Part shown: piece after piece, positions 20,031-42,784 of the stretch
How the letters are laid out: every line of letters begins with the position of its first letter
Numbering within the stretch: the stretch's first letter is position 1
Virus record (IMG/VR): IMGVR_UViG_3300037088_000263
Span: 1-57,410 of that record
Source of the DNA: a virus
Length of the DNA: 57,410 bases
Strand: one strand, 5' to 3'
Made by a program: the position numbers and the translations under genes
The notes under the pieces: model-generated
Databases searched by the model: none
The model's input: only the letters and a program-made list of their open reading frames with translations
Told to the model about the DNA's origin: nothing

Positions 20031-21014
20031 TTAGTCGATCAGAAAGATTTCGTGGGATTGCAGATAGTTGGAATCCAGGGGTCCGCTGTATGTCGGTCCG
20101 GTCTCTTCGTTGCTGATGCGAGAGTCCATGAAACTGTTGTCGTCCAACTGCGCCCGGTTGAGCAAGTCCCGGTACTCCGCATCCACCCGCGTCAGCGCGT
20201 TCAGGTGGTACGCCTTCGTCTTGATATCCACGTCGGGTTGGTTGGCGACAAGCTCGTGGCCGTAGTGCCTAGCCCGAGCCATAATGAGTTGGTCGGGAAT
20301 CTGCGGCGGCAGAACGTCGGTCGGCTTCACCGCATCACCCTTCGTCATGTACTCCCACAAGTAGCCGATTTGCTGCACCGGACCCGGCCACGCTTCGAAC
20401 CTCGGGCGCTGTTGCGTGTCCCCCGGCATCAGCACGTAGTCGTGCGCCGCCATCCAAATCGGAATCGAGAAGTTCTGCCGGTTCGGGTCCACCCGATCTA
20501 CTTCCTTCTGCGTGCGGAAGAGATTGCGGTACCGGAAGCGGTACATATTCACGGGGTCCACCATCGAAAGCGACCGCTTGAAGTCCACGGAAGGAGTCGG
20601 AATGTACGGCTGGTAGATCATGTACGAACTGGCGGCGGAACCCTTCTCGGCATACGGGCGGTCAAGAGTGATGGTGGAGACCCCATCGTACGCGATGATG
20701 TTGTAGATGGGACCGCCTGTGACGCGGAACTGACGGAGAGTAAGGGGAAGTGCAGGAGGCGCGGGAAAGGCGACCGCCAGCCAGAGAGGGGACGCTGTAG
20801 CGTCAGCCACAACGGTATTCGTGAACTGCGTAGTTTGAACCGTGCCGCTGGTGATGATGGAAGGCGCGAACCACGATCCGTTGGCCTTCAGGAAAGACCA
20901 CTCGCGGGAGTCGCGGATGTCCTTATAGGCCCGCTGGACCAGGGGCAATGTGGCCAGCGGGTCTATTTGGGAGAACCAGGACTTCATTTCTGCCGCGAAT
21001 TGTGCCAGTTGCAT
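20031..21014 (-). CDS. Head-to-tail connector-like protein, 327 aa
   Basis: The first helices (AQFAAEMKSWFSQIDPLATL then PLVQRAYKDIRDSREWSFLK) and the later RYRNLFRTQKEVDRVDP segment resemble phage adaptor/gatekeeper proteins. These often begin with a helical bundle followed by a beta domain. No signal peptide. It follows the spike operon and precedes the lysis genes. The family is inferred from shape and location. Confidence 0.5.
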   Translation of the reverse strand: MQLAQFAAEMKSWFSQIDPLATLPLVQRAYKDIRDSREWSFLKANGSWFAPSIITSGTVQTTQFTNTVVADATASPLWLAVAFPAPPALPLTLRQFRVTGGPIYNIIAYDGVSTITLDRPYAEKGSAASSYMIYQPYIPTPSVDFKRSLSMVDPVNMYRFRYRNLFRTQKEVDRVDPNRQNFSIPIWMAAHDYVLMPGDTQQRPRFEAWPGPVQQIGYLWEYMTKGDAVKPTDVLPPQIPDQLIMARARHYGHELVANQPDVDIKTKAYHLNALTRVDAEYRDLLNRAQLDDNSFMDSRISNEETGPTYSGPLDSNYLQSHEIFLID

Positions 21015-21026
21015 TTTGTGAATCTC

Positions 21027-24000
21027 CTATTGCATGTACCCCGTCATCATTCCCGTCGCGCGGCTGAACACTCCCGCCGCCCCAATCGTTATCGAAAAGC
21101 CGGTCGGCCCTGCGCTCCCCGCACCATTCGTCGCCGTCACGTTGATGGTGCTCGTGCCTGCTGTCGTCGGCGTGCCCGAGAGCAGTCCCCCGCTCGTGAA
21201 CGTCAACCCGCCCGGCACCGCGTCGTACGTCCAGGTGATCGGCGTGTCTCCCATCGCCTGGAACTGTGCCGAGTAGGGGATTCCTACCGTGCCTGATGTC
21301 AACGGGCTGGTTGTGGTGATCGTCGGGGGAGTGCCTGACAATCCACGGGGCAGGATGTCCCACTTCGGGTTGCTACTCCCACCCGTGTTGGGCACGTTGG
21401 CGTTGAGCCACGTCATCATGTTGCCCCCCGTGTAGGAACCATCCGAGTAAGCGTAAGCCCAACTCGCCATCCCCTTGAATATGTTGGCGTAGTCAGCCGG
21501 ACCTGGAGTGTGAGCGACCAGCCCGCTGTTGTTCCAAATGAAGTAGTTCCTGGTATTCAACGGCGCGTAGTGAAGAACGCCGGCCGTGGTACCCCAGCCC
21601 GTAAGCGGCACGCCAGCCTGATGCTCCGCAAGGGTGTCGGAGTCGATCATGTACGGGTTGGAGTTAGGGTTCAGAACCAGATTGATCCATGCTTTAGCCG
21701 AATAAGAAAGTAGTGACTCGAACGAGAATCCTTGATCTTTGCCGTGGCCCCACGCTGCGTATAGGAAGCCCATCATCCACAGCTTTCCGCATGTCGTGGT
21801 GCCGTCGTAGTTTACCGTCCAGGGCGCAGCGCATTGATCCGCGGTTCCCCCGGTAGGCCACCCGAGCGGAGAGACATGTGGCGCGGCCTGCTCGGGTTCA
21901 GTCGCAGTTGTCTGGTTTCCCCAACACCATTTATCTGTCGTAGTGCTGGCGTTGTACCCAGCGCAAGTCGGGTCTGACGGCGGGTATGCCCCGGTCGTGA
22001 TGTTGTACCGGCCCTCGGAAATCTGGATGAAGTTGTTCACAATGCCGGTGAAGTAGGATTTTTCCGCTGTCCCGTCTGGAGTAGAAATCGCCGCCTGAAT
22101 TGCGGATCGCAAGGTCCAAGCATTTCCCCGCGCCTGTAGTCCTACAGCGCCCAGGTATCCCCAGGCACCGGCCCTTCCGTTGATAGAGCGATCCGGGTTG
22201 ATCGGGATTTGGTTATAGGAGTTCCATGCTAGCATCTCCTGAAGCGGGTACCAGTCGCCCGTCATCAGGTACTCGAAATATCCGTAAGACGGCTGATGGG
22301 CAGCGTCATAGACCCACCCGTGCGATGTACTCCGAGGCGCGGCATAGGTAACGTCGTCGGAACCCGTTGTGACGTTGAACCTCATGGTAGGGCGCGCAAT
22401 GACGGACACCGGATGCCCGAAGGCATTAATCGTGTTTGTCGGCGCATCGAACCATCTGCCAGTCGCGCTCTCCCACAGATGGATCGGCACGAGGCCACTA
22501 CAATTTAGCGTCTGCGTTACCGGCCCATTGAATGAGGTATTGTCTACGGACGGGTTGGACATTCCGTACAACCACCGTACTTGCCATGCGGGGATAATTC
22601 CGATAGGATCGGTGGTAGTCTGCCCGGTGGTACCCATGTCCTTCGGAAATCCTCCCGTCACGGTCTGCGTGACCACTTGGCTAGTCGCCGGGTCACACTG
22701 GTCCGTGACAACCCCACCAAACATGTTTCCAGTCCAGGTGCTTGCGTCGGCTGCAATGGAGGCCGCCGTTACCGTCCCCGTCGTATCGTAGTTTGGAATC
22801 AGCCCAGTGCTCTCCAGGTACGCAAAGCCGTGATCGAATTTTACGTCACCCAAAGCTGTGCCGCTCCAGTAAGTCTTACGCCACCGCGTCATCGCATAGT
22901 GGGGAAACGCCGCATGGGAATATTTGGTGGTCCCATTTCCGCTGTCTCCGAAGATCGTGATGGCGTATCGTTGGTCTTGCAGAGCTGTAGTCCAATCGTC
23001 CGTGAGGACGTAATCGACCTTCACTCCGCCCGTATATCCGGCGAAGAACGTCAAAACAAAGACCGGATGCAGGCTCTTGAGCGTAGTGTCACTTGCCCAT
23101 GTAGCCGTACCGTTCGGGAACCCGCCGATTTCCAATGGACAGAATGGAAGGTTCGCACTCCCTTGAGTACTTGGGACAATCGCCGCTCCCCCATTCGAGA
23201 CAGACAACTGGAACGTGTTGGCAGCCGGATTCACAACGTAATAAGTCTGACTGTTTGTAAAACCTGAAGGGGGGCTGCAATAAGTATTGTTGACCCTAAG
23301 GGTGACGAGTGCACCGGCTTGCAGTGTGTGCCCGTTGGACGTGATTGTTCCATCTGTGGTGTTCACAGCAGTAGATGCCAGATTCACCGTACAGTTTCCC
23401 GAGCAGGTGTATCCAAAATCATTGGACCGTGCGGATGTCCGGTCCTCCAGGATGACTTGTGTGACAACAGGACCCTGTAGCCAATAGCGCACACCAAGCG
23501 AGTTTGGGTCGGTGCTGATCGACGATGCCGCGTTCAAAATGGTACGGGCGTCTGCCGTCTTCGTGACGCTGGACGCAACCGTCTGGATCTCCGCATCCCA
23601 GGAACGCGCAAGAAGATCGGTCTTGGACAAGTAGCCGGTGTTGTTCCCAGTGCTCTGATTCTGAAAAGTGACCGTGATGCTACCGCTTGCCACAATCGTG
23701 GAAACAAAACTGACCATCGCCTGCTTCACACTGTTATCAGGCCACCGGGTTTTCACGTCGCACTGCGTAGGCACAGGCACGCCATTGACCACGGCCTGGG
23801 CATACTGGGCGATGTCGCCCTGCTTGAAGGTCCGAAAGATCATATTGGGCCGGTTTGTCTGCGTGGAGCCGGACACGTCCGTGAGCACGGCTGGCGCGAG
23901 AGGGGTGCCCGTCGCGTCACCGGGGATTGTGGCTAAGTTGGTCGGCTCCGCTGGCTCCCAGGTGAATCCTACAGGCTCGTTGAATGTGATGAGCCAGTTG

Positions 24001-25202
24001 GAAAGCGTGTCTCCATTCCAGCCTACCGTCACGTCGGAATCTCGGATGTTGCCGCGTGGTCCGCCAGTTGGGCCGACCTTGGTAATGTCGGCGCCATAAT
24101 AAGCGTACTGAAGTTGGCATTGATTCGGAGAGCACATTGGCGTAGACGCCAGCGTGATAGTCAATGTGTCGGCAGAGGCCACTGTGACGTTGGTTACGGT
24201 AACCTTTGTCCCGGTCGTATCGGTGAAGTGGAATCCCCACGGGGAGCAACCCGCTCCACTTGGACAGTTCACGTCGCCGGATGGATTGGTAACGTTCGTA
24301 GTGTCGATGACCACCGGACCTACCGGGAGCCACAACCGCAGAGTCACCGCTGCTCCGGTGAGAGTAATGGCGCGTGGCGAGGTTGGCTTCCACCCTTTAT
24401 GTTGCCGCGCAATCCAATCCAACGCACGTCCCTGGTATTCTCCCAAGTTCTTGCTGCCACCCGCCGATAGGTGGCAGGGATTGTTTGGCGAGTAGTCCAT
24501 GGTGTACTTTGGGGTGCTGAGAAAGATCGTCCCATCCGCGTAGTGATCCATCGCGGCGTGCCATTGGCCAATTTGCGTAGAATCCCCGCTGCCGGTGTTT
24601 TTGCAGGTTGTCCAGGCGTTCATTTGATCGACTACTATCGGGATTAAGCCAGTCTGCCCGATGGCTGCGTTGATGTCAGTTTGCAGCGTGGATTGCCATT
24701 GCACGAGATCGGCTTCGTAAGTCGCCGGTGCCATCGGCCAATCTGACTCGCCGTGGGTGATGACGACGGACGGAACCCAGTACGTTCCAGGGATCGCCAG
24801 CACTTGGGTCTTGCCGTTTGTCACGCCCGTGATAAGGTTGTTGTATGGTGTGGTGCCCTGTTTGATCGTGGAATAGATCGCCCCGTCTACGCCGTACTTG
24901 TTCACCATGAACCTGCGCCCGCCGAGAGCGCTTGCCTGGTTACCGAGCGAAGTGGCCGGAGCTTCTCCGTCCTGGCCATTACCTGTAGTCGCGGGCTCCT
25001 GAAGGTTCGTCAGGCTCCCAGTAGGCGGAAACCCCGTCATCATGTAGTTGCCGTTGGTGGAAACGGAGCACGCCGGATATCCAGTCTCCCCGCAACGAGA
25101 GTAGTCACCCCGGCTCAAGCTCTGCCCGGTGGTTGGTATGTGATAGACGGTCTGGCCGATGCCCGCCAACGTGATAACAAAGAATACCACCAGGAATCTC
25201 AC
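21027..25202 (-). CDS. Signal-peptide tail spike with SGNH esterase domain, 1391 aa
   Basis: Residues 1-18 form a Sec signal peptide (RFLVVFFVITLAGIGQ). Residues ~20-270 are an SGNH/sialate-O-acetylesterase-like domain. The nucleophile Ser28 lies in TTGQSLSRG, HGESDW is at ~152, and the DxxH-equivalent NPCHLSAGG at ~242. Residues ~430-480 (GVPVPTQCDVKTRWPDNSVK) resemble the N-terminal RIFT barrel of YetA/PL26-type lyases, and ~750-1200 is aromatic and helical like their (alpha/alpha) barrel. The end is an Ig-like putative domain (TSGTVGIPYSAQFQAMGDTP). Likely a surface-glycan-degrading spike. The signal peptide is unexpected for a virion protein. Confidence 0.7.
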   Translation of the reverse strand: MRFLVVFFVITLAGIGQTVYHIPTTGQSLSRGDYSRCGETGYPACSVSTNGNYMMTGFPPTGSLTNLQEPATTGNGQDGEAPATSLGNQASALGGRRFMVNKYGVDGAIYSTIKQGTTPYNNLITGVTNGKTQVLAIPGTYWVPSVVITHGESDWPMAPATYEADLVQWQSTLQTDINAAIGQTGLIPIVVDQMNAWTTCKNTGSGDSTQIGQWHAAMDHYADGTIFLSTPKYTMDYSPNNPCHLSAGGSKNLGEYQGRALDWIARQHKGWKPTSPRAITLTGAAVTLRLWLPVGPVVIDTTNVTNPSGDVNCPSGAGCSPWGFHFTDTTGTKVTVTNVTVASADTLTITLASTPMCSPNQCQLQYAYYGADITKVGPTGGPRGNIRDSDVTVGWNGDTLSNWLITFNEPVGFTWEPAEPTNLATIPGDATGTPLAPAVLTDVSGSTQTNRPNMIFRTFKQGDIAQYAQAVVNGVPVPTQCDVKTRWPDNSVKQAMVSFVSTIVASGSITVTFQNQSTGNNTGYLSKTDLLARSWDAEIQTVASSVTKTADARTILNAASSISTDPNSLGVRYWLQGPVVTQVILEDRTSARSNDFGYTCSGNCTVNLASTAVNTTDGTITSNGHTLQAGALVTLRVNNTYCSPPSGFTNSQTYYVVNPAANTFQLSVSNGGAAIVPSTQGSANLPFCPLEIGGFPNGTATWASDTTLKSLHPVFVLTFFAGYTGGVKVDYVLTDDWTTALQDQRYAITIFGDSGNGTTKYSHAAFPHYAMTRWRKTYWSGTALGDVKFDHGFAYLESTGLIPNYDTTGTVTAASIAADASTWTGNMFGGVVTDQCDPATSQVVTQTVTGGFPKDMGTTGQTTTDPIGIIPAWQVRWLYGMSNPSVDNTSFNGPVTQTLNCSGLVPIHLWESATGRWFDAPTNTINAFGHPVSVIARPTMRFNVTTGSDDVTYAAPRSTSHGWVYDAAHQPSYGYFEYLMTGDWYPLQEMLAWNSYNQIPINPDRSINGRAGAWGYLGAVGLQARGNAWTLRSAIQAAISTPDGTAEKSYFTGIVNNFIQISEGRYNITTGAYPPSDPTCAGYNASTTTDKWCWGNQTTATEPEQAAPHVSPLGWPTGGTADQCAAPWTVNYDGTTTCGKLWMMGFLYAAWGHGKDQGFSFESLLSYSAKAWINLVLNPNSNPYMIDSDTLAEHQAGVPLTGWGTTAGVLHYAPLNTRNYFIWNNSGLVAHTPGPADYANIFKGMASWAYAYSDGSYTGGNMMTWLNANVPNTGGSSNPKWDILPRGLSGTPPTITTTSPLTSGTVGIPYSAQFQAMGDTPITWTYDAVPGGLTFTSGGLLSGTPTTAGTSTINVTATNGAGSAGPTGFSITIGAAGVFSRATGMMTGYMQ

Positions 25203-26257
25203 AGGCTACTTCCATACCATCTGACCCGCCGTATATTGGCAGGCGGCGTGTAGGTCAATTCCCACGCTCCAATGGTCGGAGCGGCTTGCCTCGTGTATCC
25301 GCCGATGTCCTTAGGCCCGTTGGTCGCGTCCAGAAACCCGTTCGCCGCCAAGTTGGTAGATGTGATCCCGATGAGATTCATACTGGCGGTCGCCGCGCTG
25401 GTAAACGGAGTCGCCGTGCTCCAGGTCACGTTGTATTGCTGATTGGTCCCGGGCAACCCCACAGCCAGGTTGGTGGCGTTGTATTTGCTCGCAGTGGCAT
25501 CCCAACTTCCGCTCGTCGCCGTAGAGAAACCGAAGATCGCCGTCGATTGCAGGATTGCCGATGACCCGGAAGACATCGTGATCCCTTCGGCAGAGGCACC
25601 CACATCGGCTGGTTTGACGATGCTGCACCCCAGCACCAGAGGCGTTCCGCTGATAAGGTAGAATCCCTTCCCCGTGCCATGCTGGATGGCGGCTATGTTG
25701 ATGAACTTCGCGCCCGTCGCATTATTCGCCTGAATCACACTCTCTGACCCGGCTGTCGTCACTTCAAGGATGAGGTCCTTTAGGGTGTTGTTGCTGTACG
25801 TGATTAGTGCTTCTGACGACCCAGTGCCCGTCGTCTTGATCTGCAACCGGCTGATGGTGAGGTAGGCGGCAACCGTTTTGATCCCGAACGTGCCGGTTAC
25901 GGCTGTCCGTATTCCTACGCCTTTGGTCTGGTCGTAGACCAGAGGATTAGTGCGGACTCCGGCGTTATCCTGAAACGACTGACCCGCCGCCGCCGTTATA
26001 GTGATGGTGTGGGTCGAATCGGTGGTGTGCGCGGAGAAGACCGGCACGGCGGCAAACTCAGAATCGTTGTAAAGCAAACAGACGTAGCTGTTCCCATCGG
26101 TCACAAGATTAGCCGGAATTGCTACTTCACAGGAATGAACGTCAGTATAGTTTCGGCTCGACGTGCCGACCGTAGCCGTGCAGGGCGTTCCGGTAAAGAG
26201 ACCCGCACAAGCTCCCCAGGAAGACGCCGACAAGAGGAATAAGAGAGGCAGTCTCAT
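25199..26257 (-). CDS. Signal-peptide beta-helix fibre-like protein, 352 aa
   Basis: A signal peptide (RLPLLFLLSASSWGACA) is followed by a Thr/Ser/Asn-rich right-handed beta-helix-like body (ITISRL-, ANNATGAKFINIAAIQ-type rungs). The C-terminus reads TIGAWELTYTPP, a common ending of parallel beta-helix surface proteins. It overlaps both neighbours by 4 nt. Probably a fibre or spike partner of the 1391-aa protein. Confidence 0.6.
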   Translation of the reverse strand: MRLPLLFLLSASSWGACAGLFTGTPCTATVGTSSRNYTDVHSCEVAIPANLVTDGNSYVCLLYNDSEFAAVPVFSAHTTDSTHTITITAAAGQSFQDNAGVRTNPLVYDQTKGVGIRTAVTGTFGIKTVAAYLTISRLQIKTTGTGSSEALITYSNNTLKDLILEVTTAGSESVIQANNATGAKFINIAAIQHGTGKGFYLISGTPLVLGCSIVKPADVGASAEGITMSSGSSAILQSTAIFGFSTATSGSWDATASKYNATNLAVGLPGTNQQYNVTWSTATPFTSAATASMNLIGITSTNLAANGFLDATNGPKDIGGYTRQAAPTIGAWELTYTPPANIRRVRWYGSSL

Positions 26258-27258
26258 CGTATCACCTTCCAGTTCAGGCTCACCGCACCAGGAGTGATAC
26301 CCGTGCCGGTTCCATTACATACTGTAAAATTCACAGCCCCAGCGCTGGCGAACGGGTAGATTATCAGGCCGTCTGTGCCCGCCTTCCCATAGCCGGTGAC
26401 CCCACTGATATCGGCATTAGGGGTCCAGGTAATCGTATCGGTGGATGCGACGGTTGTCAGGCTTCCAGTGGAGGCGGTTGGCTGCACTGCAGCGGCGCAG
26501 GCGTTCGCACCGATCAGCGTTGTGCCAAGTGTGGCCGTGCCCACGGCGATTGTCCGCGTGATACTAGAAGGGATATCCGCGTTGGCAATCGCGCGAGGTA
26601 GCAGCACGCTGGGATTCGCGCCATCCGAGTACACAAAACCTGCCGTTGGGGCAGACCACAGAGTATTAAAAAATGCAGTAGGCACGCTCGTAGGCGCCTG
26701 AATTCCCGTAGTGTTTGCTGGTGGCGTATTTGCAGTCCCTTGCACCATCGCGTGCATTCCTGCGGCTCCGCCAACAGGGGGACAGTTTTGTATGTGGGTG
26801 GTCGGGTCTATCGTGCACCCACTGTCCGCAAGCACTCCGCCACTACCCGCCACCTGAATGGCATTGGGACTACCAGCAGCAGAAGCGCCTCCACCCGTTG
26901 CCGCCCACACTCCCGCTGACACGTAGCGGCACAATTGCACCTGCCCGATGGTCTGGGATGTGCAGTTCGCGGAGTCGGTAACCACGGCCAAGGCGGTAAC
27001 GGGAGGAGTGAGAGCATTCAACTGCGCCAGGGTGTACGGACCAAGCACCGTAGTGCTCACCAATAGGTTCCGTCCGACCACATTGACATTAACCCCGTCG
27101 TCGCTGATTGCTGAATCGCCAACTGAGGTCGAACTGGTGGCTTTGGGAATCTTGTTGGTGGTCAGACCGGATATCCCGCCACCTCCCCCGCTTGGCGGCG
27201 GCGTTATCTGTGCTGAACACGCGGTGGCGATAAACGCAAACAACGCTACTATCCTCAT
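26254..27258 (-). CDS. Signal-peptide fibre-like protein, 334 aa
   Basis: The signal peptide (RIVALFAFIATACSA) leads into QITPPPSGGGGGISGLTTNK, then a Thr/Val-rich middle and a compact C-terminal beta domain (GSLTTVASTDTITWTPNADI). ISGLTTNKIPKATSSTSVGD is typical of phage fibre shaft repeats. A 42-aa copy of the N-terminus occurs at 38161-38289. Residue C14 could allow lipidation, but no clear lipobox is present. Confidence 0.6.
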   Translation of the reverse strand: MRIVALFAFIATACSAQITPPPSGGGGGISGLTTNKIPKATSSTSVGDSAISDDGVNVNVVGRNLLVSTTVLGPYTLAQLNALTPPVTALAVVTDSANCTSQTIGQVQLCRYVSAGVWAATGGGASAAGSPNAIQVAGSGGVLADSGCTIDPTTHIQNCPPVGGAAGMHAMVQGTANTPPANTTGIQAPTSVPTAFFNTLWSAPTAGFVYSDGANPSVLLPRAIANADIPSSITRTIAVGTATLGTTLIGANACAAAVQPTASTGSLTTVASTDTITWTPNADISGVTGYGKAGTDGLIIYPFASAGAVNFTVCNGTGTGITPGAVSLNWKVIR

Positions 27259-27617: not shown

Positions 27618-27621
27618 GGGG

Positions 27622-27990: not shown

Positions 27991-27991
27991 A

Positions 27992-28606: not shown

Positions 28607-28624
28607 TACTGGCTCCTTTTGATA

Positions 28625-28651: not shown

Positions 28652-28662
28652 CGGTTACGTTG

Positions 28663-28698: not shown

Positions 28699-28717
28699 TC
28701 TTCGCTTGTGACTTATG

Positions 28718-29878
28718 TCAAGCGGTGATCCCGTAAAAACTTTTCTGATGACGAGGACTTAAACAGATCAGATTGCAGGCCGCGTGCGTGCGCGCTACAA
28801 CCTTGGTGCTGTCCGCCGCCGGGTAGAAGCCCCACAACCCGAACTGGTAGCGCGGGCTGGCCGACAACCGGAACTGCCATTTGGTCGTGTTGTACCAGTC
28901 GAACGTCTCGCCCACTGTGACGACTGCCGTAGCCACCGGCAAGTTGCTCCGGGCATCGACGCCAGACGGAACGATGAACGTTCCGGTCTTGTAGTTGCCA
29001 AGCACCGGGTCGTTCACGCCGTACGCCGCGCTCGGGTAGTAGTCGTCGGGGAAGATGATGGCGTCGTTCATCTTCACGCCGGTCACGCCCCAGATGGCGT
29101 CTTCCGCGTTGGTCAGGTTGCCGCGCTGCAAGGGCTGAATCTTTTCCTTGATGTAGGCGAACGCGCGCTTGGTCGTCACACCGAGATTCGGGCGTTCCCG
29201 GCCAATGGAGGCGTCCCAGTAGCCCTCTTCCAGAATGGAGTAGGTCAGGGCACCACCGGGCGAGGTCTGCCCCGCCGCCGTGGTGGAGTCGCCGCAGTAG
29301 CGCGGAATCGAGTTCAGCGTGGAACCCACAGCCCCGTTGCGCAACTGCCCGCCGTACGTGGTGAAGATGCTGCCGTCCCACCCCGGCGTGATGCCGTCGT
29401 TGATGGCTTCGATCTTTCCGTTGATGTCGTACGGGCGATTGCCGACGATGCCGCTTCCGCTCGGCTGTCCGTGCAGGTTAATCGCAATGGCGATGTCCGC
29501 GCAGATCGAATTCATCATGTTCGCCAGGTTCAGGTTCAACAGCGAGAACACTGCGTTTGGCCCGACGTTCAACACGTCGATGTTTTCCATGTACTCGGGG
29601 TAGATCGCCGCGTAGTACTTCGGGTCGAACCGAGTGCCCGCGATGGTCTGCACCTTGTCCAAGTTGAACTGCTGGCCGATCCCGTAGCTGCTGGTCAACA
29701 GCGGAGCGTACAGGAAGGTCTGCTGCATCGTCGAACCGCCGCCGAACGTCGCCAGGCAGTGGTCCCGAATGTAGGCGAGGAAAGCGACATCGTTGAAGAA
29801 GTTATCCTGCACCACATTCGGATAAATTTCGTACAACGTAGTCGCTGAAAGTTCGTCCAGGGCCGGATCGAAAGCCAT
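28718..29878 (-). CDS. Major capsid protein, 386 aa
   Basis: The gene follows a scaffold-like protein and precedes a decoration-like protein. The length and mixed composition fit an HK97-fold capsid of the podovirus type. Features include an N-terminal helix (ALDELSATTLYEIYPNVVQD), a long central domain, and SSYGIGQQFNLDKVQTIAGT and FGLWGFYPAADSTKV near the ends. Exact family cannot be named by eye. It would form the icosahedral head around the scaffold. Confidence 0.75.
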   Translation of the reverse strand: MAFDPALDELSATTLYEIYPNVVQDNFFNDVAFLAYIRDHCLATFGGGSTMQQTFLYAPLLTSSYGIGQQFNLDKVQTIAGTRFDPKYYAAIYPEYMENIDVLNVGPNAVFSLLNLNLANMMNSICADIAIAINLHGQPSGSGIVGNRPYDINGKIEAINDGITPGWDGSIFTTYGGQLRNGAVGSTLNSIPRYCGDSTTAAGQTSPGGALTYSILEEGYWDASIGRERPNLGVTTKRAFAYIKEKIQPLQRGNLTNAEDAIWGVTGVKMNDAIIFPDDYYPSAAYGVNDPVLGNYKTGTFIVPSGVDARSNLPVATAVVTVGETFDWYNTTKWQFRLSASPRYQFGLWGFYPAADSTKVVARTHAACNLICLSPRHQKSFYGITA

Positions 29879-34010: not shown

Positions 34011-34558
34011 TTCCTCACCCTGTTCCCTTCGCGGTCCCTGCCGGGGTCGCGGTTGCTGGCATTGTACGACAACGCCTCGAACTCGAAATGGCCGCTGTAC
34101 TTCGGCTTCGGTTTCGAATTGTTCTTGTCGATGCTGAATCTGGCGAAGTCGCGCATGTGCGGCTGCATGTGCGCCATCCGGTCGCGCAACTGGGAGCGGT
34201 TGGTCGCCTGCACCGCTTCCATGCCCATCTCCTTGCCGATCTGGGTGCGCTCGAATTTCTCCGCTTCCTCGCGGTTTATTGCCCTCTCGACGCCGCGAAT
34301 CTCGAAAGCGTTGCGGAGTTCGACGCGGGTGTATTCGGCGGGCATCCGTGCGTCCGGTTGGGCAGGCACGGCGTACGTCCCGTCCCCACGCGCCCAAACC
34401 ACAAGCGGCTGCGCGAGATGGTGGCGCGACACCGACGTGTAAATGCGGCTCGACGGCGCGGCGCACTCGGGGCAGGCTTGCGGTCTCTCGCACTCGGCCA
34501 TCGAAGCGAAAGACTCGAATGTTCCGTGAGCGGCACAGACAAAATCATACAACGGCAT
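34007..34558 (-). CDS. FmdB-like zinc-ribbon protein, 183 aa
   Basis: The N-terminus MPLYDFVCAAHGTFESFA then CPECAAPSSR is the FmdB zinc-ribbon pattern, with metal ligands C8, H11 and the CPEC pair. A His here replaces one usual Cys. The rest is a charged helical extension. It begins inside the 3' end of the homing-endonuclease gene. In phages, FmdB-type ribbons between terminase and portal are frequent; their role is unknown. Confidence 0.7.
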   Translation of the reverse strand: MPLYDFVCAAHGTFESFASMAECERPQACPECAAPSSRIYTSVSRHHLAQPLVVWARGDGTYAVPAQPDARMPAEYTRVELRNAFEIRGVERAINREEAEKFERTQIGKEMGMEAVQATNRSQLRDRMAHMQPHMRDFARFSIDKNNSKPKPKYSGHFEFEALSYNASNRDPGRDREGNRVRK

Positions 34559-35261
34559 ATAAAATGTCCTTTTTCCTCTTTAGGTAGATTGTAGCGCCGC
34601 CATACAAATAATCGGAGACCTTCTCGCATAGTAGGTTCCCGCTGTATTCAAGCGCAAAACATCCATGAGCCTTGCTGATGCTTCCCCTGTCTCCAATGAA
34701 ATCCTTGACGCTATCCAGGAATGCCCTAGTCCCCAGGAACGTCATGCGCTTTTGAGGTTTCCTGTTAACGTACCTTTTGATGGTGGCCGACCCATCCCCG
34801 TCAAAATATCCACGGATGAAGTGGCTAATGGCTACAGATGGGAGAACAGGGAATGTGAGAACTTTGCTTTTTCGAGCAACGCATCCCAAGTTCTCTAGGC
34901 GTTCGGTGATGTGGGATGCTGGAAGTTGAATCTGAAAAGAAAGAAACGGCCCAATCTTGGGGCTAATTGATGCGTTAGTTTTGATGTCTCTTTTGAACCG
35001 TTCCAAATGGGGACGGTCTTTTTCTGCCATGCTCAAATTGAAATATAAGCCACGCCCATGTTCATAAATGCACCCATCGGCAAAAATGAAACCCAACCAG
35101 TATGCGGGATTCTGCCTAGTTAAATCGTCAAAAAACGAGACATTACAAGACACTACCTTTTGAGGAGAAAACTTCCCCTTCAACCACCGCTGTAGTGTGC
35201 ATGGGTGAACTCCGCGTTGCTTTGCTAGTTTAGTCAGTACTTCCGCGGATGGCATCGTCAA
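34545..35261 (-). CDS. Free-standing LAGLIDADG homing endonuclease, 238 aa
   Basis: Two LAGLIDADG-type motifs are visible: YWLGFIFADG (residues ~54-63) and FIRGYFDGDGS (~150). The N-terminus has an HTH-like segment (LTKLAKQRGVHPCTLQRWLK). The last residue of each motif is acidic-glycine as needed for metal-ion catalysis. The gene sits between terminase large subunit and FmdB genes with 4-nt and 14-nt overlaps. It is not inside a host ORF, so it is not an intein here. Base composition is visibly lower in GC than neighbours, consistent with recent gain. Confidence 0.85.
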   Translation of the reverse strand: MTMPSAEVLTKLAKQRGVHPCTLQRWLKGKFSPQKVVSCNVSFFDDLTRQNPAYWLGFIFADGCIYEHGRGLYFNLSMAEKDRPHLERFKRDIKTNASISPKIGPFLSFQIQLPASHITERLENLGCVARKSKVLTFPVLPSVAISHFIRGYFDGDGSATIKRYVNRKPQKRMTFLGTRAFLDSVKDFIGDRGSISKAHGCFALEYSGNLLCEKVSDYLYGGATIYLKRKKDILYAVV

Positions 35262-37477
35262 AGCTCCAATCCATCTTCCTCCATTCCAGCGCCAGGGTGC
35301 AACGGTCCCTGGAAATACTCCCCCAACTTCGGCGTCCCGAGTTCCTGCATCTGCCGCACGGTGGGTCGAATCACCATCGGTTCGTCGCCGGCCAGCATCT
35401 CCCGGTACGCCACCGGCCCGCCCTCGGCGCGGCGCTGCCGCAGGTATGATGTCGAGGCCACCTTCCCGGCAAATTCCAAAATGTGCAGCGAAAGGTAGAT
35501 GATTCCCAACGCCATGAATCGGTCGTCATGCTGGCCCTGTTCGGCGCGCGCCATCTGAACGCCTTCGTCGCGGTGCAACGCCGACATCTCGCGCACAAAT
35601 TCAGGCGAGTTGATTTCCATGTCGCCGTCGCGGAGGGCCTTGATTAGGTAGTCCATCAACATCGGGCGTGACCACCTGTTTGTCACGAACCCGATGCGCG
35701 AAGCGTCCTTGTTCGAAATCTTCTTCCGGTCGTACCTGATCCACTGGTGGAAGTTATTCCACCCCAACTTGCGAAGTTCAAGCTGCGTGACCTCGCCGTT
35801 CAGTCCCGTCTCAATCGCAATCTTCGGTTGCCGGTTGCTCCCGTTCTGGTAGAACAGGCCGATGCAGTGGAGGATGGGTGCCAGGTCGTTCGCGTTGATG
35901 TACTCGCTGGCGTACTCTGCCGCCTGCTGATCGGAGTGTGTAAGCGTTCCCTTGCACAGCACCTCGACTACCGAACGGTCCTGCCCGATGCCGTCCCCGG
36001 TGTCCACCCCGAAGCCGTAATCTTCGCCTTGTTCCGGCCAGCGGAAGACCAGCAACTTCGCGCCCCAGTTCGACGTGGCCCACCCTTCCCACCGCAGCGG
36101 GACCATCTGGTACGGGCCGATATCGAGGATGGGTTTGTTCTTGTCGCGGTCGTGTTCTTCGGCCTGAAGGCGCGGCGGAATCATGCTGACCGGACCACGA
36201 AATCCGAAGACCCCCTTGGGTTCCTCGCACGATTGCGTGTAGTCGCTGATCGTCTCCACGTCAAACACGCTCTCGCCGGAAGCGCAGAATGACTCAATGT
36301 CGCTGGCGGCAAACTCGCGCTGGAACCGAGCGAGGATTTTCTTGTTCCGGTACTCTTCGCGGGTTACCTGCCAGAACCACATTTGCTCTTTCGGCATCGC
36401 CCAGTTTTCGGGAAAGTACCGGCACAGTAGTTCGTTGGTTCTGACAAACTTTCGGGCGCTCTCCGCGTGGGCAACCGTGATGCCTTCCGGGTGCCAGTCG
36501 GTCAACTTCTCGCGGGCTTCCTCGCGGAGTTGTCGCGTGTCTACCTGACTGTTCAGCCGCAGAGATCGCTTGAGCCACGTGTCGGTCGGGTAGAAGTCGG
36601 ATGCCACGAACCACGGAAGGAACCCCGGCCTGAACTTTGCCTGCCCCTTCCAGTAGTATTTCTTGCAGTGGTTCCACGTGTCATAAAGCCAGCCGAACGG
36701 ACCTTCTCCCGTGCTCTCCAGAATTACAATCTTGCGGGCGCTCTCGTGGACGGCAGGGACCAATCCCGCGTCAATCAGGTCGGCGGCGTTTAAGTACGTG
36801 GCAACTTCGCTGAGGTGTACGACTGACGGCGTGTTGCCGCGCCCGATATCGTACTTCTGGCTTCCGTGCTGGAGAACCAGTTTGGAATTGATGCCGCCGA
36901 ACTCCATGCGGGTGCCGGCGCGGTCGGCGGTCATGGCGGGGACCAGCCAGAACGGAAGCGACTGATACAGCCGCTTGTACTTGTCCACCATGTCCCGAGA
37001 TCGTTCCTTGTCGGACGACCCGGTGAGAGCAATCACGTTGTCGAAAAACAGGGTGCGGTGTCCGACAACCACCTGACTGTCAGTTGTAATCCCGCACTGC
37101 CTTCCCTTGAGCCACATTTGCATGATGGCCCACCCGAGGTCTTCCTGTTCAGCACGGGCGTCGTTCACAATCAGTTGAGCGATGTTCGGGTTGTAGTGGA
37201 TCTCTTCTTCATCGGCGTTTAGAATCTTGGCGTACCGGCTGGCGAAGTACAGGTAGTCGATTTTGCAGATAGCCCGCTCATTTCGAATCCACTGGACTTC
37301 ATCTTCGCTGTACAGCAGAGGGACGTTCGGACCCACTGTGTCGATGTGACGGAACTGCTTGTCGGCGAAGTGTTCGACGGCTTCGTCGCAGGCATCGACA
37401 GCGTGCCATATCGGTTCGTGACCGAGAGCCTTTTCCACCGCAGGAATCGCCAACTCGATACTGCGCTTGGAGTACAT
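35258..37477 (-). CDS. terL: Terminase large subunit, 739 aa
   Basis: The ATPase motif is LKGRQCGITT (Walker A variant near residue ~120). Walker B-like hydrophobic-acidic segments follow. The C-terminal nuclease has VDTGDGIGQDRSVVEV and a late HDDRFMALGI motif providing the acidic residues. The order and spacing match phage large terminases, which cut concatemers and drive DNA into the portal. It is long (739 aa, usual 450-600). It starts 1 nt after the small-subunit stop. Confidence 0.9.
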   Translation of the reverse strand: MYSKRSIELAIPAVEKALGHEPIWHAVDACDEAVEHFADKQFRHIDTVGPNVPLLYSEDEVQWIRNERAICKIDYLYFASRYAKILNADEEEIHYNPNIAQLIVNDARAEQEDLGWAIMQMWLKGRQCGITTDSQVVVGHRTLFFDNVIALTGSSDKERSRDMVDKYKRLYQSLPFWLVPAMTADRAGTRMEFGGINSKLVLQHGSQKYDIGRGNTPSVVHLSEVATYLNAADLIDAGLVPAVHESARKIVILESTGEGPFGWLYDTWNHCKKYYWKGQAKFRPGFLPWFVASDFYPTDTWLKRSLRLNSQVDTRQLREEAREKLTDWHPEGITVAHAESARKFVRTNELLCRYFPENWAMPKEQMWFWQVTREEYRNKKILARFQREFAASDIESFCASGESVFDVETISDYTQSCEEPKGVFGFRGPVSMIPPRLQAEEHDRDKNKPILDIGPYQMVPLRWEGWATSNWGAKLLVFRWPEQGEDYGFGVDTGDGIGQDRSVVEVLCKGTLTHSDQQAAEYASEYINANDLAPILHCIGLFYQNGSNRQPKIAIETGLNGEVTQLELRKLGWNNFHQWIRYDRKKISNKDASRIGFVTNRWSRPMLMDYLIKALRDGDMEINSPEFVREMSALHRDEGVQMARAEQGQHDDRFMALGIIYLSLHILEFAGKVASTSYLRQRRAEGGPVAYREMLAGDEPMVIRPTVRQMQELGTPKLGEYFQGPLHPGAGMEEDGLEL

Positions 37478-37478
37478 G

Positions 37479-38120
37479 CTATGCCGATTTCTCCGCGATG
37501 GCGGGCAGTGTTCGCATGGCGGTGGACAGTTCCTTGATGCCAGCTTCGAATGCCGGGAGTTCGACCCCTCCGGGGTTGACTCCCTGCATGTCTGCCTTGG
37601 CTTGCGCGATGGCGGTGTTCGTGACGGGCACGTTGACGGTGAAGCCGCCCCCGGTCTTGTCGGTCTGCCGCGTGACTTCCATGAACAGGCGGCGGTCTGC
37701 GATGCCGTCCGGTTTCGACGCCTGGTTAGCCATCGCTATCGCCACCCGGCCAGCCTGCCGTGCCGCGACCGTGGCGATGACAGTGCGCGTGATGTCGAAG
37801 CTGTAGCGGTGGAGGACGCGAGAAATGGCCCCGAAGCAGTCCGAGCGGTTTGTGCCCGATAGTTCGCAAATGCGTTCGAAGGAAGTAGCGGAAGCGCGGC
37901 GGGACTGAATCTCGAAGGTCTCGACGAACTTGCGCATGTCTTCCTCGCCCTTTAGGAGTTCGACGACGCGCCTGCGGGTGTCGGTCGGCTTCTCGCTGGG
38001 CTCCTGAATGAGTCCAACCATACTATCAAGGGAACCATCATACCGTGGCGCTATGTGGTCACCGAGCATCCCGAGCACCTTGGAATCCTTGCCGATCACA
38101 TTGGGGTCTTTCTTTGCCAT
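37479..38120 (-). CDS. Terminase small subunit (predicted), 213 aa
   Basis: Directly upstream of the large subunit with a 1-nt gap. The centre (RRRVVELLKGEEDMRKFVET) is helical and basic, the C-terminus helical. Small terminases are divergent, so the call rests mainly on position, size and charge. It would recognise the packaging site. Confidence 0.6.
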   Translation of the reverse strand: MAKKDPNVIGKDSKVLGMLGDHIAPRYDGSLDSMVGLIQEPSEKPTDTRRRVVELLKGEEDMRKFVETFEIQSRRASATSFERICELSGTNRSDCFGAISRVLHRYSFDITRTVIATVAARQAGRVAIAMANQASKPDGIADRRLFMEVTRQTDKTGGGFTVNVPVTNTAIAQAKADMQGVNPGGVELPAFEAGIKELSTAMRTLPAIAEKSA

Positions 38121-38160
38121 GCCTTACTCTTCTCCTGCCTGTTGAATTTTGCAGGCATGT

Positions 38161-38289
38161 TACGAATAAAATACGTTGCCTACGGCGTGGGCAGTTTCGC
38201 CGCCTCCCCCGCTTGGTGGAGGCGTTATCTGTGCGTGGACAGCCGAGGCAAATGCTAAACACAGAGCAATGGACACCAAAATCTTCATT
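38161..38289 (-). CDS. Secreted 42-aa protein, truncated copy of a fibre N-terminus
   Basis: The ribosome site AAGGGAAGGA lies 4 nt before the ATG at 38289. The product is a signal peptide (MKILVSIALCLAFASAVHA) followed by QITPPPSGGGG and 11 further residues. The same QITPPPSGGGG follows the signal peptide of the 334-aa fibre at 26254-27258. At DNA level 38204-38235 matches 27182-27213 at 30 of 32 bases. It is either a decayed fibre gene or a small secreted protein. Confidence 0.5.
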
Positions 38290-38620
38290 TGAATCCTTCC
38301 CTTTTTAGAATACGTAAAACGGACCCCGGATTCCAGCGACCACGGCGGGCGGGGAACTTGGCGAGGTCGAGTTCCGCCACGATGTCGCGGATAGTTCGCT
38401 TCTCGCGGCGCATTCGGAGAATCAGGTCGAGTCCCATGCGTTCGTTCGGCAGGCTCCCGTAAGGCTTGCTGCCTTCGACCCGGTTGTTGCGGCGATTCTC
38501 CTTGTAAGTCTTGATGGCGATGCGTTTCTTCTCCGCATCGTAGTCTACGATGGCGGTCAGCACCGCACCACGCACGGAATCAAGAACTCGGTCGAGGAAG
38601 ACTTGTTGTGGTTCAACCAT
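38285..38620 (-). CDS. Recombinase C-terminal-like DNA-binding protein, 111 aa
   Basis: The C-terminal ~60 residues (GSLPNERMGLDLILRMRREK then TIRDIVAELD and RRGRWNPGSVLRILKREG) resemble the DNA-binding end of serine recombinases. The phage's own resolvase at 54232 has the same layout (EELEVMERVRALRAEGLTWA ... EWYPGTLCRLF). The catalytic N-terminal domain is missing. It sits two genes before the small terminase, so it could be a DNA-binding packaging partner, a regulator or a relic. Confidence 0.55.
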   Translation of the reverse strand: MVEPQQVFLDRVLDSVRGAVLTAIVDYDAEKKRIAIKTYKENRRNNRVEGSKPYGSLPNERMGLDLILRMRREKRTIRDIVAELDLAKFPARRGRWNPGSVLRILKREGFK

Positions 38621-38692
38621 TTATTTGTAGGGCGGGCGGCTCATGGACGCCAATCCCTGGACCGCCCTCCCGCCTTAGCCCAAGCGGGAAAC

Positions 38693-41600
38693 TCAATTCC
38701 ACTCGTCCCATACGTCAACTGCCAATCCAGATCCAGGAACACAATAATAGTACCAAGACGGAGGAACGATAAAACTACCAGACAATGTAAGCCCCAACGT
38801 TGCCCCAACGCTTCCGGAACCTGCCCATGCGTTATATGTTGACCCAGGAGAAGTTGGTCCCATTGAGCACCCAATCCCTCCTAGCCATGACCCCGCATAT
38901 CGTATGCTCATGCTCACAAATCGTGGGTTAGAGTTATTATTCTGATAGGTAACACCCAGCGCTCGTGTGGGCTGTGAAAATGATGAAGGTCCACATGCCG
39001 GACACCCTCCTGTCCCCACGGTCAGTTTGGCGAGATATGACCCGGAGGGGCTGTTATCCTGAATCCCATATCCGCTTGGCGTGTAGACGGCGAGCGTAGC
39101 CAGTGACCCATTCCGGTTAGCATCGATTACCGACGTACCCGCGACCTTATATCCCCCGATCAGATTGGCCGACCCAGCACCAGAAATGTTGCCGTTGCCA
39201 TCCACTTGGAAGTTGTAAGGGCTCGCCGTCTGGAACGCGATGGCCGAGCCCACCGCGCTGGACTGGACGACGCCCGTTGATGTCACCGTACCAAAAGTAG
39301 CTGCTCCCGAAGAATTGATCGTCCCTGCTACATCCAATGTGTACGAAGGGCTCGCCGTCCCGATGCCGACGTTGCCGTTGGAACTAAGGCTCATTACTGT
39401 AACCTCGGTGGTTGGTCCCGCACTGTTAGCGAGCTTAATATCAAGACGTGTGTTGGCATCGCTAGTGCCGATGTTATACCTTCCAAGAGCAAAAGCAGCA
39501 GCCGTCGCCTGCGATACATTCGCCGTGCCAGGTCTCGTAAGAATCAGTTCCGTTTCACTGGTGTAATCTTGCGTGATGGCAGACCCAGCAATTTCCACTT
39601 TGGCGTGAGGAATAGTCGTGCCGATGCCGACGTTACCGCCGTTGTAATAAACCGACGTGCCGCTTGTAAGCCACGGGGAAATGTTCTGCCACGTGGTCCC
39701 GTTATAGACTTTGGCTGTCCCTGATCCAGTATCGAAGTATTGTCCACCAGCGTGTATGGCATCGCCTGTGGTGAGTGCCGGGACTCCACTGCTATTTCCA
39801 GTCTGAATATAATTCTTCGCAGTGAAGGACAATGCTGCCATGCCTCCTACTAGGGTTCCGCCGAAATTGACGGGCTGAAAACAGTTATACTGTGCGCAAG
39901 CAATCGACACGAAACCCGCATCCGATTGAACAAACCCAGTGGAGACGGCAAGGCCAGCGTTCGCCGAACTCAGCGCATTAACGGTCAACAGTTGCGTCGA
40001 GTTGTTCCAAGTGAAGTTGGAAGACCCCCCGAATGCGCCGGAGTTATTGAACTGGACTTGCGTGTTGGACCCACCAGGAGTTCCCCCGCCCCCGCCGAGC
40101 GCGGCATAGGCACCGCCGTTTTGTGAAACCAGCAACGTGTGCGTCGAGCTGCTCGCGTAGATGCGCGCCTGCCCCGCTGCCGAAAGTGCTGGCGCGGCCT
40201 CTTCGGCCAAGAACAGCGAGTCTCCAGCGTAGATCCACTTGCCTTCGACTCCACCATTCGGAGCCTGAACCGCGTTTACCAAACTGCTGGGGGTCTCGAA
40301 CCCTGAGTCGGACTGCACGTACCCGTTGGTCACGTTGATGCCCGCGATGGCAGACGGCGTGGTGACGTTCAAAAGCGTGGAAGCAGCCGTCCAAGTCAAC
40401 GCGCTGGACCCTCCGAAAGACCCTGCGCTGTTGAACTGGATATTGGTACTCGCGCCACCTGGGGATGTCGCGCCACCTGTCGCCAGCGCAACGTACGCCG
40501 ACCCATTCCAGATTTGCGGGTTTCCTGCCACTGTGTCCCAGTACAGCAGTCCGGGGTGCTGTGCATCCGATGTCGTCAGGGATGGAGCCCCCGCATGACT
40601 TCCGATCTGGATATAGTTGGCCGCCGTGAAGGACAGAGCCGCAGCACCCCCTGTTGGTGCCTGCACGCAGTTGTATTGTACACAGGTTCCAGGAGTGGCG
40701 ATGAATCCCTGGTCGGCCTGCACGAAGCCGCTCCCTACAGCAATGCCTGCGACCGAAGAACTGAGCGCCTGTACCGTCAGAAGGTGAGTCCCAGAGTTGT
40801 AGTAGAAATATGTGTCGCCGCCGAGGGTGCCGGAGTTATTGAACTGCACAGAAGTGTTGACTCCGCCTGGGGTGCCGCCACCACCAAACGCAGAGTAGGC
40901 ACCGCCGTTCTGGCTGATGAGCAAATGATGTGTGCTGCTGTCCGCATAGACCCGCGCTTGCCCTGCCGCCGACAGCGCGGGGGCAGTCTCTTCCGCCAAA
41001 AACAACGAGTCCGTACCGATCAGCCATTTCGCGGTTACGCCCCCATTTGGCGTCTGAATTGAATTGGTGTTGGTCCCGGTGGAGAGAAACCCCACCGTGG
41101 CTAGCGCGTACCCGGTAATCGTCAACTGTCCCGGCCCGTCGCTCCACGTCAGTTTGGCCGAACCGGCAAACGAACCGGAATCGTTGTACTGAATCTGCGT
41201 GTTCCCGCCTCCGGGAGTCCCTCCACCGCCGCCACCCGCGAAATCAACCGTGTTCCACGACCGCGACGTGTTGTTGAAGTACCAGAACTTCGAGCCCCCC
41301 TGGTACGCGAAGCCCCCGTAACAATTTGCAATCGACTCGATCTGGACACATGAGGCAGACGGCGTATTCAGCCCCGTGGATGTCGCGTGCGCTTGAAGGT
41401 AGATGCCTTGGTCCAGCGTCTCCCCCAGCCGGATGTAGGACCCGCCGAGCAACGACTGGATGCTGTTGTACCCGCTGTTGTCGGTCGCAAACCCGCCACG
41501 AGCAAAGATGTAGGTGCTGGAGTTCAGCCCCCAAAAATTATCCACGTACCCAGGCAACGGCTGACCGCAACTCCCGTTCAAAGGCATCGAAGGCGATGTC

Positions 41601-42472
41601 CCTACCCACAACACGGTGTCGTGTGGACCGAACGTCCCTCCCGTCACAGGCAAGGGCTGCTGGACCGGGTTTCCCCATTGGTCGAAACACGGAGACCCGT
41701 TGTACGGGTTGTAGTCGATAGGTGAGATCACAAGATACCCCCCATTAGGAGGCGAGACAGATCCGGGAGACTGCACAACCGAGTAGCCGCTAAATACTAG
41801 GCCAGAACTCGACATATCCTCCGTCAACGTGTTGTACTTCCCGCCACCGAACTTCACCTGCTGGGAGAACAGCCCGTCTCCAAGTACCGTCGTCCTTCCA
41901 TTCACAAACAAGCCGAGATTGGTTATCCCGGTTGACAGGTATAGCCCCGTCGTATTCGACCACATGAAATTCGATGAACCGCCGAACACGCCCGATGTCC
42001 CCACCTGTACCGACCCATCCGGCCCACTGGGAAGGCACGATGCAAAAGAAATGGCTCCAGGGGTGCCGGAATACCAGCACCCCGTACCGCTCGTAGACGG
42101 CAGCGTCCACCCGAACCCAAACACGTCGATGTCGCCGAACGTGACCGCCGAAGGCATAGCAGGCGTGCCGCCCGACAACTGCACGTCAACATGCCCATTC
42201 GGAGTGTACAGAAAATAGTGCCCGGTGGAATCGGCAGTCGTCGGATTTGAGATTGGGGTGGACCCGGCAGCGTCGGAGAACAGACTCGCCCGCGTCCCGC
42301 CGCTCCCCGTCACGTACACGTTCACCACGCAGAACGGATACGATCCTTGAACCTTCGTGGTCGAGGTCTGCCCTGAAGTTACGACGGGACGGTTGCCGAT
42401 CTGGCACCATCCCTGGACTCGATCCATGCAATGCGCCGAGCACGCCAGCGCCAACAACAGCAACGTCTTCAT
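38693..42472 (-). CDS. Signal-peptide modular tail-fibre protein, 1259 aa
   Basis: The signal peptide is MKTLLLLALACSAHC. Then come repeated modules of ~120-170 aa that each open with TPGGGNTQIQYNDSG, TPGGVNTSVQFNNSG, SPGGASTNIQFNSAG and TPGGSNTQVQFNNSG. GSxFVQxDxGF and LFLAEExAPALSAAGQAR blocks recur between them. Toward the end NVGIGTTIP and NVGIGTASP mark two further fibre-type repeats. The composition suggests a long trimeric beta fibre. It is the second gene of the late operon. The signal peptide is unusual for a phage fibre. Confidence 0.7.
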   Translation of the reverse strand: MKTLLLLALACSAHCMDRVQGWCQIGNRPVVTSGQTSTTKVQGSYPFCVVNVYVTGSGGTRASLFSDAAGSTPISNPTTADSTGHYFLYTPNGHVDVQLSGGTPAMPSAVTFGDIDVFGFGWTLPSTSGTGCWYSGTPGAISFASCLPSGPDGSVQVGTSGVFGGSSNFMWSNTTGLYLSTGITNLGLFVNGRTTVLGDGLFSQQVKFGGGKYNTLTEDMSSSGLVFSGYSVVQSPGSVSPPNGGYLVISPIDYNPYNGSPCFDQWGNPVQQPLPVTGGTFGPHDTVLWVGTSPSMPLNGSCGQPLPGYVDNFWGLNSSTYIFARGGFATDNSGYNSIQSLLGGSYIRLGETLDQGIYLQAHATSTGLNTPSASCVQIESIANCYGGFAYQGGSKFWYFNNTSRSWNTVDFAGGGGGGTPGGGNTQIQYNDSGSFAGSAKLTWSDGPGQLTITGYALATVGFLSTGTNTNSIQTPNGGVTAKWLIGTDSLFLAEETAPALSAAGQARVYADSSTHHLLISQNGGAYSAFGGGGTPGGVNTSVQFNNSGTLGGDTYFYYNSGTHLLTVQALSSSVAGIAVGSGFVQADQGFIATPGTCVQYNCVQAPTGGAAALSFTAANYIQIGSHAGAPSLTTSDAQHPGLLYWDTVAGNPQIWNGSAYVALATGGATSPGGASTNIQFNSAGSFGGSSALTWTAASTLLNVTTPSAIAGINVTNGYVQSDSGFETPSSLVNAVQAPNGGVEGKWIYAGDSLFLAEEAAPALSAAGQARIYASSSTHTLLVSQNGGAYAALGGGGGTPGGSNTQVQFNNSGAFGGSSNFTWNNSTQLLTVNALSSANAGLAVSTGFVQSDAGFVSIACAQYNCFQPVNFGGTLVGGMAALSFTAKNYIQTGNSSGVPALTTGDAIHAGGQYFDTGSGTAKVYNGTTWQNISPWLTSGTSVYYNGGNVGIGTTIPHAKVEIAGSAITQDYTSETELILTRPGTANVSQATAAAFALGRYNIGTSDANTRLDIKLANSAGPTTEVTVMSLSSNGNVGIGTASPSYTLDVAGTINSSGAATFGTVTSTGVVQSSAVGSAIAFQTASPYNFQVDGNGNISGAGSANLIGGYKVAGTSVIDANRNGSLATLAVYTPSGYGIQDNSPSGSYLAKLTVGTGGCPACGPSSFSQPTRALGVTYQNNNSNPRFVSMSIRYAGSWLGGIGCSMGPTSPGSTYNAWAGSGSVGATLGLTLSGSFIVPPSWYYYCVPGSGLAVDVWDEWN

Positions 42473-42784
42473 CTACTTCTCCTTTGTCGGAGCCGCCACA
42501 CACTGTACCGTCTCCGCATTGAACTGCGCCCCGCCGTCCGCACAGGTCTTCGCCAACGCCTGCGAGGCCGACTCGTACTTCGCCGCGACCGGCTCTTTCT
42601 TGAACGCTTCCTCGTACCGACGCTGTAGCGTCAGCCAGTCCCGCTGCACCAGCAGGAATTCCGCCCGGTCCTTGTCGGCAACGGTCGGAAGAGTCTTCGC
42701 GGCGTGAACATTCGGCGCAACCTTGGCGTCTTGGGCGAACCCGAGGCCCGTCATCAGAATAGCAATCGTCAGGAACAGTTTCAT
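42473..42784 (-). CDS. Small secreted protein, 103 aa
   Basis: Start at 42784 (MKLFLTIAILMTGLGFAQ) preferred over a longer frame to 42823 because it gives a clear signal peptide with cleavage after GFAQ. The mature part is helical and charged (LLVQRDWLTLQRRYEEAFKK) with two Cys near the end. It is the first gene of the late operon and ends 0 nt before the fibre gene. Periplasmic or virion role unknown. Confidence 0.6.
   Translation of the reverse strand: MKLFLTIAILMTGLGFAQDAKVAPNVHAAKTLPTVADKDRAEFLLVQRDWLTLQRRYEEAFKKEPVAAKYESASQALAKTCADGGAQFNAETVQCVAAPTKEK

Follow-up and report, generated by a model that had tools for sequence, protein, structure and literature searches.

Predicted Sec-type signal peptides on the tail spikes and fibres of a probable Acidobacteriota podophage and its relatives

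The fibres of tailed phages are generally held to fold in the cytoplasm. Phage proteins that are exported by the Sec pathway have been described among endolysins, viz. Lys44 of phage fOg44 and the SAR endolysins (PMC6116005). The open-access literature that we searched describes the signal peptides of phage endolysins and gives no account of Sec signals on the tail fibres or spikes of tailed phages, and virion or secretome proteomics were not found. The dsbA hits of a Klebsiella screen have been attributed to host surface proteins (PMC13412088), and no support for spike export is taken from them here. Tunturi_1 and Tunturi_2 are isolated podoviruses of Acidobacteriota and Tunturi_4 is a siphovirus (PMC11924767); the text of the paper on these phages mentions neither signal peptides nor mass spectrometry.

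The stretch of DNA analysed in the present work (the window) comes from IMG/VR, where it forms a record of 57,410 bases. Its ends (1–127 and 57284–57410) are identical, and because of this direct terminal repeat of 127 bp the genome is probably complete. The window is probably the complete genome of an Acidobacteriota podophage from soil. Its major capsid protein (28718–29878, minus strand), which lacks a signal peptide and serves as a lineage marker, has relatives in INPHARED only in the Tunturiibacter phages Tunturi_1 and Tunturi_2 (33% to the Tunturi_1 major head protein), and a contig of 59 kb from a Bryobacterales MAG encodes an 82% relative. On account of these capsid relatives the host is most likely a Bryobacterales bacterium. 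As judged from sequence, tail spikes and fibres with a standard secretion signal are encoded by the window phage and by most of the relatives sampled.

Signal-peptide genes of the window

Signal peptides were scored by rules covering the n-, h- and c-regions and the residues at −3 and −1, with a working cut-off of 6.5, and only anchored or model-called starts were counted, because accepting a signal-peptide-like start in any ORF yields many false antisense matches. Known signal peptides of E. coli (n = 14) score 6.6–10.7 and those of the relatives' proteins 6.4–10.1. Five window proteins score 6.6–7.6, each with a basic n-region, an uncharged h-region and small residues at −3 and −1, and every other window gene scores below 4.5, save the protein starting at 20026 and a remnant ORF starting at 38288. 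The 20026 protein scores 9.1 but has an internal transmembrane segment, and it was therefore set aside as a membrane protein. None of 21 genes of the control phage T7 reaches 6.5, and among 32 genes of the control phage N4 the spanin and the endolysin alone do so. The cut-off is reached by 1 of 184 spurious ORFs of at least 80 aa in the window and by 5 of 441 in the relatives (about 1%), and by 91 of 2000 shuffled N-termini (4.6%). A codon-model gene caller that is blind to signal peptides chooses exactly the five starts 42784, 42472, 27258, 26257 and 25202, and besides these five no protein of its gene set scores 6.5 or more. The preliminary description had read Sec-type signals at six starts: the rule-based score, the blind caller and the controls all agree with the Sec-type reading, and five of the starts stand, whereas the sixth, 38289, falls, as this position is no start codon and the ATG at 38288 opens a remnant of 42 codons.

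All five genes lie on the minus strand. The start at 42784 (gene 42473–42784, ATG) belongs to a protein of 103 aa, whose signal peptide of 17 aa (42734–42784) is predicted to end with MKLFLTIAILMTGLGFA ahead of QDAK. Behind it lies a helical region and then a Cys-Cys hairpin, and its AF2 model (pLDDT 70; two helices and a beta-hairpin) is too weak for naming a function. Signal-peptide proteins of 97–118 aa with a similar layout adjoin signal-peptide spikes at five other loci (L109, L120, L131, L132 and L140) and occur also in the relative C280, and this small protein is a candidate for an exported companion of the fibre. The protein starting at 42472 is a spike or fibre of 1259 aa (38693–42472, ATG), the start of which abuts the upstream stop; its Sec-type signal peptide (42428–42472, score 6.6) is predicted to be cleaved between MKTLLLLALACSAHC and MDRV. 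The remaining three are a fibre-like protein of 334 aa (26254–27258, ATG; signal peptide 27211–27258, score 7.6, MRIVALFAFIATACSA before QITP), a protein of 352 aa (25199–26257, ATG; 26204–26257, score 7.4, MRLPLLFLLSASSWGACA before GLF) and a protein of 1391 aa (21027–25202, GTG; 25155–25202, score 7.3, MRFLVVFFVITLAGIG before QTVY). Each of these starts shares 4 nt with the stop codon ahead of it, as ATGA at 27258 and 26257 and as GTGA at 25202. The 27258 and 26257 proteins have no Pfam or PHROG match.

The five N-termini hold, by reading, no canonical lipobox of SPase II ([LVI][ASTVI][GAS]C), the closest approaches being ALAC (42472) and ATAC (27258). An [AGSC]Q pair lies close to the predicted site in 22 of 36 phage signal peptides, as it does in 40 of 62 and 10 of 29 signal peptides of two Acidobacteriota genomes, and Gln occupies +1 in 15 of the 36 phage signal peptides and in 25 of 62 and 5 of 29 of those two genomes.

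The remnant (38160–38288, minus strand; 42 aa) consists of a signal peptide (38232–38288) and QITPPPSGGGG, reading MKILVSIALCLAFASAVHA up to the predicted site and QITPPPSGGGGETAHAVGNVFYS from there to the stop. It has about 34 nt in common with the mature start of 27258 and is for this reason taken to be a remnant and no virion protein; it is best read as what is left of a second fibre gene. A search for the motif QITPPPSGGG gave no matches. An ORF of 111 aa (38285–38620) directly precedes it and resembles, as a sequence impression, the C-terminal part of a serine recombinase, with no Pfam or PHROG match; on a like impression a recombinase-like ORF is also present at 54232–54930. A 56-aa ORF at 54058–54228 is built of Gly/Ser/Tyr/Asp repeats (GDGYGDGSGDGYGGGYGD).

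Signal peptides are lacking from other structural and packaging genes of the window, all on the minus strand, viz. the terminase large subunit (35258–37477; PHROG matches), a tail structural protein of 438 aa (16147–17463), a virion structural protein of 1282 aa (12175–16023; nozzle-like by position only) and a short fibre or adaptor with the N-terminus GLGNKSFQGFGLP (11048–11806; no PHROG match). The gene next after the signal-peptide cluster (20031–21014, minus strand; 327 aa, no Cys) also lacks one and is comparable in place and size to the 'tail protein' gp11 of Tunturi_1. A LAGLIDADG homing endonuclease (34545–35261; PF14528, phrog_4645) lies just after the terminase gene.

Docking domain, cysteines and conservation in relatives

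Directly behind the signal peptide of 42472, the first 100-odd residues of the mature protein form a predicted head-binding (virion-docking) domain with a conserved Cys pair (42128–42427, minus strand). Its AF2 model (pLDDT 88) retrieves from the PDB, as the top three Foldseek matches, the tail machines of the cyanophages Pan3 and Pam1 (probability 1.00, with modest E-values of 6e-3 to 3.5e-2), the matched chains being the tailspikes of Pan3 (9vyg) and Pam1 (7eeq); the matches in the viral database BFVD include phage spikes and pectate-lyase fibres. All matches of the family HMM to the PDB up to E 0.1 are likewise tailspikes (best E 0.0084). The structural models thus point to the mature N-terminus of 42472 as the virion-docking domain of a spike. 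Further along, residues 793–844 give a short match to phrog_9942 tail fiber (E 1.7e-8), the one such match in 42472 itself, and Pect-lyase and tailspike PHROG matches, which suggest a spike-type body, are found in a 674-aa relative in G005. The long signal-peptide proteins had been described earlier, and rightly so, as of fibre or spike type.

The domain family (alignments A2 and A5) occurs at 37 IMG/VR loci, 29 of 30 tested spike-family records also carry this capsid lineage, and the N-domain of 42472 is homologous to gp12 of Tunturi_1. In many relatives the signal-peptide spike gene lies directly 3' of the homologue of the gene for the 438-aa tail protein (16147–17463); the window has its 42472 gene upstream of the terminase genes and outside the tail operon. 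Origin from a host adhesin was considered and rejected, the spike N-domain being absent from 396 Acidobacteriota genomes except for a phage contig. A cytoplasmic isoform starting at an internal Met after the signal peptide was also rejected, since such a Met is present in a few members only.

In the window, 42472 is the one signal-peptide protein in which the docking domain was found; 25202, 26257 and 27258 showed none. The 25202 protein carries, at residues 19–389 (24036–25148, minus strand), an SGNH-esterase-like tail-fibre domain with 8 Cys (phrog_4201 tail fiber, E 1.7e-53), which in an alignment shares the catalytic-type motifs GQS, GE(S/N) and HL(S/T) with the protein of Acinetobacter phage HD01; relatives of 25202 sought in IMG/VR were not found. 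As it combines a glycan-esterase-like domain with the lack of a docking domain, 25202 may act as a secreted enzyme. More broadly, 25202, 26257 and 27258 may be free secreted glycan-active enzymes or may be attached to other fibres as distal segments.

The relation between signal peptides and cysteines was examined in a spike set pooled from two scan patterns, the second of which was independent of Cys and was run because the first required one; together they gave 38 non-redundant spikes with the docking domain. A signal peptide is present in 35 of the 38, and the Cys pair is kept in 31 of these 35 and in none of the three without a signal peptide. Fisher's test for this difference, in which only three members lack the signal peptide, gives p 0.004, the Cys content (median 1.66% with a signal peptide vs 0.45, 0 and 0.64% in the three spikes without) gives p 1e-4, and podophage signal-peptide proteins of at least 200 aa compared with others (median Cys 1.89% vs 0.97%) give p 6e-5, values that overstate the strength of the association because related genomes of one clade are not independent. 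The three spikes without signal peptides belong to the same clade by capsid. One example is G434 (L160:4383–8056), where adjacent paralogues, one of 692 aa with 3 Cys and no signal peptide and one of 531 aa with 10 Cys and a signal peptide, provide a natural experiment within one genome. The fibres of G435 and G431 also lack signal peptides and are poor in Cys. Cys counts in the first set are mostly even (26 even to 5 odd, or 27 to 4 if 42472 is cut after AHC; control 58 to 66); parity was rejected as stand-alone proof, the second set having no even excess (11 to 9). Because Cys and signal peptides co-vary in the docking-domain spikes, export into an oxidising compartment is well supported at the level of sequence, and these data would be hard to reconcile with a non-Sec role of the segment.

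The recurrence of the signals, which the preliminary description had tied to one operon, is instead general among the relatives, including the isolated Tunturiibacter phages. Signal peptides are present on gp12, gp13, gp14, gp16 and gp17 of Tunturi_1 and Tunturi_2, and in Tunturi_1 on every long protein of fibre type that is encoded after the capsid genes. The fibres of Tunturi_3, which has the same host strain as Tunturi_1, are without them, and export is therefore not demanded by the host. Signal-peptide genes are clustered in fibre positions in the relatives G001, C280, G005, G004 and G007, the longest of the encoded proteins having 2305 aa and 51 Cys; conserved signal-peptide fibre genes are present in two further relatives (G437 and G438); and none of the relatives' capsid, portal, terminase or tail-tube genes has a signal peptide. 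In Tunturi_4 they are found on gp113 and gp114, and on gp111 too when the upstream start chosen by the caller is adopted. The bodies of Tunturi_1 gp17 and Tunturi_4 gp114 are 47% identical behind different signal peptides, and a signal-peptide-bearing module is thus common to a podovirus and a siphovirus. Outside the fibre cluster of C280 (contig 280 of G008), a 136-aa signal-peptide protein (37147–37557) looks lytic transglycosylase-like, as a sequence impression.

The annotated start of Tunturi_4 gp111 (PP885687; L027:36076–39171), at 36433, is probably too far downstream, and the upstream start gives the signal peptide MNRISKAIGLCALALSVGSSYG ahead of QTAAVK. Signal peptides of phage fibres are easily missed, as gp111 appears to be annotated downstream of its own.

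Proposed route and alternative readings

We consider it rather probable that the spikes pass through Sec, lose their signal peptides by cleavage, acquire disulfide bonds in the periplasm and dock on virions at lysis. By this route the spikes and fibres with signal peptides, and their associated proteins, would be translocated by the host Sec pathway, the host signal peptidase would remove the signal peptides, and these proteins would fold in the periplasm, forming disulfide bonds there. The cytoplasm would be the site where heads and tail stubs are assembled and packed, and lysis would mix the compartments, whereupon the docking-domain spikes (42472 and its relatives) could dock onto the virion tail. 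For the wider proposal that tailed phages of Acidobacteria follow a two-compartment morphogenesis, in which capsids and tails are cytoplasmic, disulfide-bonded spikes are periplasmic and join at lysis, and Cys-poor spikes without signal peptides mark gain or loss of the route, we see the chances as evenly balanced. If true, this would mean that some of the virion, disulfides included, is produced in a compartment other than the cytoplasm and that assembly ends at lysis. The isolated Tunturi phages make spike export directly testable.

Three options had been offered for the signals, viz. assembly outside the cytoplasm, a secreted glycan-active enzyme and a non-Sec use of the segment. For 42472 the first is preferred, since the mature protein has at its N-terminus what corresponds to the docking domain of a spike; the second stays open for 25202; and the third is disfavoured, because Cys co-vary with the signal peptide within one family and the Ala-Gln sites are host-like. 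That all of the exported proteins stay off the virion, as enzymes and adhesins, secreted or kept at the surface, by which host polysaccharide is removed or masked (for spread or superinfection exclusion), would accord with the intact motifs of the SGNH-esterase-like domain of 25202, which has no recognised virion anchor, with the pectate-lyase-type domain of the 674-aa protein of G005 and with the lectin-like or Ig domains on signal-peptide proteins of G005 and Tunturi_4. It is, however, unlikely, given that the docking fold is shared by the signal-peptide spikes and by the same-clade spikes without signal peptides, that the signal-peptide spike genes sit in the tail operon in many relatives, and that Tunturi_1, all of whose long fibre-type proteins have signal peptides, would be left without an obvious ordinary fibre. 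A division of fates, with docking-domain spikes on virions and 25202, 26257 and 27258 as free secreted enzymes, is a real possibility, although at somewhat less than an even chance: it fits the restriction of the docking domain to 42472 and the bare signal peptide of 25202 where the HD01 homologue has an N-terminal part of about 260 aa, but the signal-peptide genes form one translationally coupled run adjoining tail genes, and some of their products could be distal segments on another fibre.

The N-terminus might also stay uncleaved, as a membrane or tail anchor of signal-anchor or SAR-like type on a cytoplasmic protein. Such segments are known in phage lysis proteins (PMC6116005) and appear in our N4 control; the short n-regions, the SPase-I type sites, the frequent Gln at +1 as in host signal peptides, the co-variation of Cys and the lack of a recognised lysis function in these large proteins make this reading quite improbable. 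Least credible of all are chance or mis-called starts, i.e., ordinary cytoplasmic fibres preceded by spurious upstream codons, for which a form without the signal could be supplied by Met16 in 42472 and, in a few relatives, by a Met located where the mature protein is predicted to begin. The preliminary description had judged chance unlikely, and the stop-overlapping starts, the agreement of the blind caller, the spurious-ORF background of about 1% and the presence of the signal in 35 of 38 spike-family members confirm this; unless dozens of genomes have wrongly assigned starts, chance is already refuted computationally.

Comparison with known systems

Lys44 and the SAR endolysins (PMC6116005) are likewise tailed-phage proteins, and they use host Sec through N-terminal signals; those are lysis enzymes, whereas the proteins described here are of spike or fibre type. 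With the tailspikes of Pam1 (7eeq) and Pan3 (9vyg) the window spike family shares a docking fold with which the mature protein begins and, in the relative G005, a putative spike body of pectate-lyase type. The spikes of Pam1, Pan3 and a third podovirus differ in beginning directly with the docking domain, without a signal peptide, whereas the window family has both a signal peptide and a conserved Cys pair. A parallel contrast is seen between 25202 and the phrog_4201 fibre of HD01: both have the same SGNH-like domain with GQS, GE and HL motifs, but the HD01 protein has an N-terminal part of about 260 aa, no signal peptide and 1 Cys in this domain, and 25202 has in its place a signal peptide only, followed by 8 Cys. 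In the podoviruses Tunturi_1 and Tunturi_2 and the siphovirus Tunturi_4, as in the window, fibre-type genes carry signal peptides.
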